Positions 49,602 through 50,523 of a stretch of 57,402 bases of DNA are shown in pieces. How positions within the stretch are numbered: position 1 is the first letter of the stretch; each line of letters opens with the position of its first letter. The stretch is from Clostridiaceae bacterium. GTDB taxonomy: Bacteria > Bacillota > Clostridia > DSM-8532. The position numbers and the translations under genes are program-made. The stretch lies in NCBI GenBank assembly GCA_012522505.1, contig JAAYKJ010000019.1:1-57402 (forward strand). The letters run 5' to 3'. Below the pieces are notes generated by a model. The model saw nothing but the letters and a program-made list of their open reading frames with translations. It was not told the DNA's origin and made no database searches.

Positions 49602-49614
49602 TGATACAGCATTT

Positions 49615-50340
49615 CTATATCAGGTGTGGGAAAATATGCTCTACAGGCACCGCAAGCCCTTTAAACAGAAAAGATTCAGCAATATCGGTTGCTTTACACA
49701 GCTGATACTGGGAAACCTTGTAATCTTTAAAATGGTATAAATATACCTCCTGTTTCGTGGGGTTTACAATCCAGTATTCGGAAATACCGCTTTCGGAATA
49801 CAGATCCAGCTTCTTTACCATATCTTTGTTGACTTCTGATTCGGACAGCACTTCAACAACGAGGGACGGAACACCGGTATACCTGCCTTTGCTGTTGATT
49901 TTGCTGGTATCGCAGATGATGAGGATATCGGGCTGAACAATATTGATATTATCCTGGTCCCCGAGCCTGTGTAAGGTTACATCAAATGGCGATGTTAATG
50001 GACTGCATTTTTTTCCCCTAAACCATTGATACATGATACTAAGAACTTCCACAATTATTCTTTGATGGTCGTAGGATGGTGAAGACATCAAGTATACTTC
50101 ACCATCAATATATTCGTATCTGTTATCACTGGTATCCGACAGTTTGATGAATTCCTGGTAGGATATTTTTCTTTGGTAAGCATTTGCCTGCTCAGATACT
50201 GAATGACTGCCAACTTCCCTGTTATAGCTTTTTATGACAACAACCCTTTTCCCGTTTTTCGTAACAATGATATCTTCCCACGCGGCAAGCTTAAGATACC
50301 GACCAAAATTATTCTGGGCTTCGGTTGAAGTAATTTCCAT
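49615..50340 (-). CDS. Phd/YefM antitoxin-Uma2 nuclease fusion protein
   Basis: A 241-residue protein made of two parts. Residues 1 to about 40 (MEITSTEAQNNFGRYLKLA, then IIVTKNGKRVVVIKSY) look like a Phd/YefM antitoxin DNA-binding fold. After a linker, about 60-235 is a Uma2/DUF820 PD-(D/E)xK nuclease-like domain: DNRYEYIDGEVYLM, then VQPDILIICD, PSLVVEVLS (acidic site) and KKLDLYSESGISEYWIVNP. Uma2 proteins are very widespread and of uncertain function. Fusing the Phd half would let the protein bind its own promoter, where two TTAGCTAAT boxes are found. It could be a self-controlled nuclease, a toxin-antitoxin or a defence factor. The start at 50340 has AGGTGAT just upstream; an earlier ATG at 50358 does not. 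Confidence 0.8.
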   Translation of the reverse strand: MEITSTEAQNNFGRYLKLAAWEDIIVTKNGKRVVVIKSYNREVGSHSVSEQANAYQRKISYQEFIKLSDTSDNRYEYIDGEVYLMSSPSYDHQRIIVEVLSIMYQWFRGKKCSPLTSPFDVTLHRLGDQDNINIVQPDILIICDTSKINSKGRYTGVPSLVVEVLSESEVNKDMVKKLDLYSESGISEYWIVNPTKQEVYLYHFKDYKVSQYQLCKATDIAESFLFKGLAVPVEHIFPHLI

Positions 50341-50361
50341 GTGATCACCTACCATCACAAA

Positions 50362-50388
50362 TTAGCTAATATTCAAAAGTTAGCTAAT
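50362..50388. promoter_or_regulatory. Operator: two TTAGCTAAT boxes 18 bp apart
   Basis: TTAGCTAAT at 50362-50370 and 50380-50388, each holding the palindrome TTAGCTAA. They lie directly after the -10 of the minus-strand promoter and cover the expected transcription start. Two sites one and a half to two turns apart suit a dimeric Phd-type repressor. Confidence 0.65.
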
Positions 50389-50391
50389 ACA

Positions 50392-50420
50392 AGTATAGCA
50401 AACATTAACATATATGTCAA
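50392..50420 (-). promoter_or_regulatory. Consensus sigma-A promoter of the Phd-Uma2 gene
   Basis: On the minus strand TTGACA (plus 50415-50420), a 17-base spacer and TATACT (plus 50392-50397). It is close to perfect consensus and abuts the operator boxes. Confidence 0.8.
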
Positions 50421-50441
50421 TAAAAAACCCCTGCAAAACAG

Positions 50442-50471
50442 TTGTGGCAAACACACGTTCTGTTATATAAT
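50442..50471 (+). promoter_or_regulatory. Promoter of sbcD-sbcC
   Basis: TTGTGG at 50442-50447, an 18-base spacer and TATAAT at 50466-50471. It is back to back with the Phd-Uma2 promoter, 21 bases between the two -35 elements. Confidence 0.6.
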
Positions 50472-50523
50472 ATTCCTAAGCTTGACTTTTCTTATTAAAC
50501 GCATCAATAAAAAGGAGGCACCT

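Follow-up and report, generated by a model that had tools for sequence, protein, structure and literature searches.

A Phd-Uma2 fusion gene with predicted N-domain-matched operators, a putative autorepressed and mobile nuclease gene

A fusion gene in the addA-sbcD interval

The window analysed here, a stretch of 57,402 nucleotides from a Clostridiaceae bacterium, carries a gene that lies antisense between addA and sbcD and joins the N-terminal DNA-binding domain of a Phd/YefM antitoxin to a Uma2 PD-(D/E)xK nuclease-like domain (Table 1). The corresponding gap is gene-free in two congeners, at 40 bp in one and 21 bp in the other. An in-frame GTG at position 50358 is an alternative start, with which the ORF would cover 49615-50358 on the minus strand. 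The flanking genes are addA and sbcD, and no cognate toxin gene adjoins the fusion. Upstream of sbcD, on the plus strand, there is a promoter-like site (GTGGCA-16-TATAAT, window 50444-50471) that may be a post-insertion substitute for addA read-through into sbcD. We also weighed an antisense effect of the gene on addA or sbcD and rejected it as a family trait, because neither gene recurs beside other fusions in the neighbour clustering.

Table 1 Features of the fusion gene and its surroundings in the window.
Feature	Position	Strand	Description and basis
Phd(N)-Uma2 fusion gene	49615-50340	minus	241 aa; ATG start, AGGTGA before start; ORF, Pfam, NCBIfam
Phd/YefM N-terminal DNA-binding domain	50203-50340	minus	residues 1-46, beta-alpha-alpha-beta-beta; PF02604, TIGR01552, fold
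Linker	50173-50226	minus	residues 39-56, poorly ordered in the model
Uma2 PD-(D/E)xK nuclease-like domain	49627-50172	minus	residues 57-238; profile, fold, alignment
Sigma-70 type promoter	50392-50420	minus	TTGACA-17-TATACT, TG before -10; consensus score 11/12
Operator box 1 (predicted)	50380-50387		palindrome TTAGCTAA, just downstream of -10
Operator box 2 (predicted)	50362-50369		palindrome TTAGCTAA, nearer the start codon
Extra DNA between addA and sbcD	49602-50523		addA stop 49601, sbcD ATG 50524; comparison with two congeners

Structure prediction of both halves and profile searches for Phd/YefM and Uma2 recovered both domains, with profile scores over the cut-offs and a matching predicted fold, confirming the claim of the initial annotation that the two are joined in one gene; domain databases probably list this combination, as we would expect. 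PhdYeFM_antitox (Pfam PF02604) matches residues 3-39 with E=2.5e-7 (30.8 bits against a cut-off of 29.8), spanning profile positions 4-42 of 74 only, and NCBIfam phd_fam (TIGR01552) scores 30.6 bits against a cut-off of 20.8. Both Pfam families, Phd and Uma2, are matched in all 42 aligned relatives. A sequence search of the Phd half against the PDB gave no match, so a fold comparison was needed. In the AlphaFold2 model, built from an 18-sequence alignment (pLDDT 87), the predicted N-domain superimposes on those of VapB46 (rmsd 1.4 over 41) and phage P1 Phd (rmsd 2.5 over 44). The Z-scores of this small domain are modest, about 6, and we therefore base its identity on the profile matches together with the order of the secondary-structure elements. 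The fusion gene is the sole Phd/YefM match in the whole genome. The linker, with pLDDT below 50 at residues 39-52, is predicted to be disordered there, and its residues E50 and Y55 are almost invariant in the alignment of 42 relatives. The toxin-neutralising C-terminal tail of stand-alone relatives (SYLTDSLTGIL...) is missing from the fusion, its place after the linker being taken by Uma2.

Uma2 is an abundant bacterial family whose function, to our knowledge, is not established. In the fusion, its profile (Pfam PF05685) matches residues 62-213 with E=3.8e-30 (105.1 bits against a cut-off of 27), and the modelled fold agrees with known Uma2 structures over residues 57-239 (Z 19.9-24.8), with 6okh at Z 24.8 and rmsd 1.6 and with 9y1l, 3ot2 and 1wdj also close. 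Residues E76, H92, Q93, Q136-P137-D138, E163, D173 and K177 are the same in all 42 relatives, so that the predicted set of acidic site residues plus lysine (E76, D138, E163, K177) is complete. Given these fold and profile matches and invariant site residues, neither of the two doubts attached to the initial annotation holds: the first 45 residues do match Phd/YefM, by profile as well as by fold, and the acidic residues of Uma2 are all present. Nuclease activity is predicted from the fold, our literature search having found no nuclease assay of Uma2 proteins; DUF820 was placed earlier in the PD-(D/E)XK group (PMC1913061), and Uma2/DUF820 proteins are regarded as predicted PD-(D/E)xK nucleases that often occur solo and in multiple copies (PMC2701414, PMC1274311).

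Predicted operators co-vary with the N-domain

The gene has its own consensus promoter and paired boxes, as the initial annotation had proposed, and the range of 50355-50395 given there for the boxes is correct. The two TTAGCTAA boxes lie 18 bp apart between the -10 element and the start codon. The expected number of pairs with this spacing in the window is 0.01, and the 3.29-Mb genome contains a single one. Because the spaced pair is unique in the genome, a larger regulon is unlikely, and the predicted operator likely serves the fusion gene alone.

Searches of about 890 genomes, together with one public contig, yielded 127 distinct fusion genes for comparison. As a single-gene module, the Phd-Uma2 fusion is genuine and widespread: in the phylum sample, the full fusion is present in about 56 of 398 genomes, with up to five copies per genome. 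Palindromic 8-mers were counted in the 200 bp upstream of each gene, and the gene interior and the upstream regions of 29 unfused Uma2 genes served as controls. The commonest upstream palindrome is TTAGCTAA, found at 54 of the 127 fusion genes, followed by TCGTACGA at 18, and neither shows enrichment in the two controls. Genes with an N-domain of the type '(S/T/A)T(E/D)xQNxFGKYL' have TAGCTA upstream in 83 of 87 cases (shuffled mean 9.5) and CGTACG in none, with L118 counted under this type following its tree position. Those of the type 'ITATELKxNLGKYLD' have CGTACG in 22 of 40 (shuffled mean 0.9) and TAGCTA in none; about 18 of these 40 are without an exact CGTACG, many of them showing TCGCAC- or GTAC-like boxes. 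At the level of sequence, N-domain type and palindrome thus co-vary. The distance between boxes falls mainly at 9, 17-18 or 20-23 bp, close to one or two turns of the helix.

In the Uma2-domain tree, a quick tree with SH-aLRT support only, all fusions form one clade of 125 in which the 'ITATELKxNLGKYLD' type is nested, and the single 'unfused' row inside this clade is an incomplete gene at the edge of a contig. One clade with a nested second type suggests that N-domain and operator switched together about once. Since the fusion genes are related and essentially one operator switch is involved, the box counts are not independent events; the telling point is that the predicted boxes persist while the clade diverges to 36-40% protein identity. 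With conserved boxes matched to the N-domain and an intact predicted site, the comparison gives good support to the earlier proposal of a putative self-regulated nuclease module. In one genome (L064, G161:C9:84076-88676), three divergent Phd-Uma2 paralogues lie within 5 kb, and the TAGCTA and CGTACG operator types are found adjacent to each other.

In seven Phd-PIN pairs from viral contigs (L193, L195-L200), the stand-alone Phd antitoxin shares its N-domain with the fusion, and a double TAGCTA box lies just upstream in six of these seven, which include two near-duplicate pairs. In a wider set, L325 and L340 carry TAGCTA pairs, and L327, of the ITATELK type, carries two CGTACG boxes. The spaced-box pattern is AT-rich, which makes its matches in viral contigs uninformative. 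Because the same boxes stand at the stand-alone Phd genes of Phd-PIN pairs, such a module appears to be the source from which the repressor half and its operator were captured, with Uma2 replacing the neutralising tail; we infer this direction of transfer from the sequences. The Phd-PIN pairs with the paired TTAGCTAA operator (L193, L195-L200, L325) come from Firmicutes-like viral contigs and one genome, and an operator common to these pairs and the chromosomal Phd-Uma2 genes could allow cross-regulation or titration.

Mobility and genomic neighbours

Among the fusion genes, 74 pairs have a DNA identity of 80% or more, and 59 of them have no homologous neighbour among the four flanking ORFs, a slightly generous count since one of these pairs (L051/L052) is collinear on its left side. 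In the 59 pairs, the shared DNA typically begins 74 bp ahead of the start codon (median) and ends at the stop codon (median -1; 10-90%: -12 to +4). One genome contains two copies with 95.9% identity, separated by 18 kb, and their flanks are not homologous. As the shared DNA is confined to a stretch that starts near -75 and ends with the stop codon, the mobile unit would consist of promoter, operator and ORF, and the fusion gene appears to have moved between genomes as a gene-plus-promoter unit. Several homologues are broken by in-frame stops. No terminal repeats, target-site duplications or shared target motif were seen at the compared copies, and one joined-flank query in five relatives found no precise empty site for L168.

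Neighbour clustering of the 127 loci revealed no conserved partner gene. The only recurrent neighbours are other Uma2 genes, beside 13 of the 127 fusions. These make up a second, distant Uma2 clade, some of its members with an HTH_17-like domain in front; examples are L144:5772-6569 (minus) and the fusion neighbours in L103, L111, L119, L125 and L152. By Pfam, 110 neighbour proteins have mostly housekeeping functions, and PADLOC identified JetA (DUF2397, Wadjet) twice among them and JetD, DrmD and BrxH once each, with Fic also present. A minority of the fusions is located in defence loci. The Uma2 half itself matches PDC-S03, which PADLOC lists as a phage-defence candidate, with E=1e-57. In plasmid, phage and IMG/VR records, no fusion was found, only unfused Uma2 or Phd alone.

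Discussion

We consider it probable that the fusion is an autorepressed, solo, mobile gene for a predicted PD-(D/E)xK (Uma2) nuclease, and we infer its binding, repression, catalysis, target and benefit along the following lines. By analogy with Phd and YefM, the N-terminal 45 residues would dimerise and bind both TTAGCTAA palindromes between the -10 element and the start codon, and the bound protein would shut its own promoter, holding the nuclease low. If the protein level drops, because the protein is diluted or proteolysed or because additional operator copies titrate the repressor, derepression would give a burst of nuclease, and Uma2 would cut nucleic acid; the gene would spread as a promoter-operator-ORF cassette. 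The linker or the N-domain may also inhibit the nuclease. Against this best reading, Phd/YefM proteins usually repress more strongly with the toxin acting as co-repressor, and the fusion locus has no such toxin.

The PDC-S03 match, the patchy distribution with transfer and the few loci that adjoin JetA, JetD, DrmD, BrxH or Fic genes are consistent with an anti-phage or abortive-infection effector, a solo nuclease silenced by its own repressor half and released upon infection. We regard this reading, the defence role named in the initial annotation, as possible though somewhat unlikely, since housekeeping genes predominate among the neighbours, no sensor or partner is conserved, and the fusion is absent from the plasmid, phage and IMG/VR records searched. 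A homing-endonuclease-like selfish gene, in which breaks made by the nuclease help to copy the cassette to further intergenic positions and the Phd half acts as autorepressor or also as targeting domain, would account for the cassette-precise homology of copies in unrelated contexts, such as the nearly identical pair 18 kb apart, for the insertion in an addA-sbcD gap that is empty in two congeners, and for the multiple copies per genome, several of them decayed; I-TevI offers a precedent of an endonuclease that is also an autorepressor (PMC2988022). However, the copies show no target-site duplication, common target motif or terminal repeat, the joined-flank search gave no empty site in the five relatives, and passive horizontal transfer could explain the movement of the cassette, so that homing seems unlikely. 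Quite unlikely, in our estimation, is the bolder proposal that the 800-bp unit of promoter, operator and ORF represents a new kind of minimal mobile element, its one protein serving both as its own repressor (the Phd half, with an operator code that changed once along with this domain) and as the nuclease by which copying to further intergenic positions is driven.

The initial annotation had also raised a toxin-antitoxin system in a single polypeptide. In such a system, the Phd part would additionally neutralise a Uma2 toxin in cis. An antitoxin domain and a possible toxin do share one chain, E50 and Y55 of the linker are almost invariant, and Uma2 has been proposed as a likely solo toxin, seldom associated with known antitoxins (Makarova et al. 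2009, PMC2701414). This part of the proposal is not supported, however: the match is confined to the DNA-binding half of Phd, the tail present in stand-alone relatives is gone, the linker is predicted to be disordered, and no partner gene is conserved. With the neutralising part missing, such a system is very doubtful. The in-frame stops in some homologues would fit a degenerate or chance fusion devoid of function, a scarcely credible explanation that is refuted for the family by the single clade of 125 members, the invariant predicted active site and the co-varying operator.

As a putative autorepressed nuclease gene, the fusion offers a handle on Uma2: with a defined promoter, a predicted operator of two natural specificities and a set of active-site residues, repression, derepression and cutting become directly testable. 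It would also exemplify a toxin-antitoxin repressor and operator re-used to control another enzyme, and provide a natural two-state code for DNA recognition of the Phd type. A full-text literature search for Uma2 with Phd returned no paper describing the fusion, and the literature searched contained no description of the operator code, of the operator common to Phd-PIN modules or of the cassette boundaries.

Among known systems, the Uma2/DUF820/COG4636 proteins (TT1808 1wdj, Ava_3926 3ot2, 6okh, 9y1l) resemble the fusion in fold and conserved site; those proteins are unfused, whereas the fusion adds a Phd DNA-binding domain with a matched operator and forms a separate clade. Phd/YefM antitoxins, especially those of the Phd-PIN pairs (L193, L195-L200, L325), have the same N-domain and paired TTAGCTAA operator, and the YefM operators of yefM-yoeB are likewise paired palindromes near the -10 element, with the core TGTACA (PMC7730913). 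Compared with these toxin-antitoxin modules, the fusion lacks the neutralising tail and the toxin gene and has Uma2 in their place. The HTH-Uma2 proteins beside some fusions (L144) similarly place a DNA-binding domain before Uma2, but this domain has another fold and their Uma2 belongs to a separate, distant clade. I-TevI and free-standing homing endonucleases belong to a nuclease family unrelated to Uma2, and homing of the fusion is the unlikely rival reading weighed above; they too combine a nuclease with a DNA-binding moiety that acts as autorepressor, as the Phd half would do in the fusion, and they are intergenic, mobile single genes (PMC2988022).
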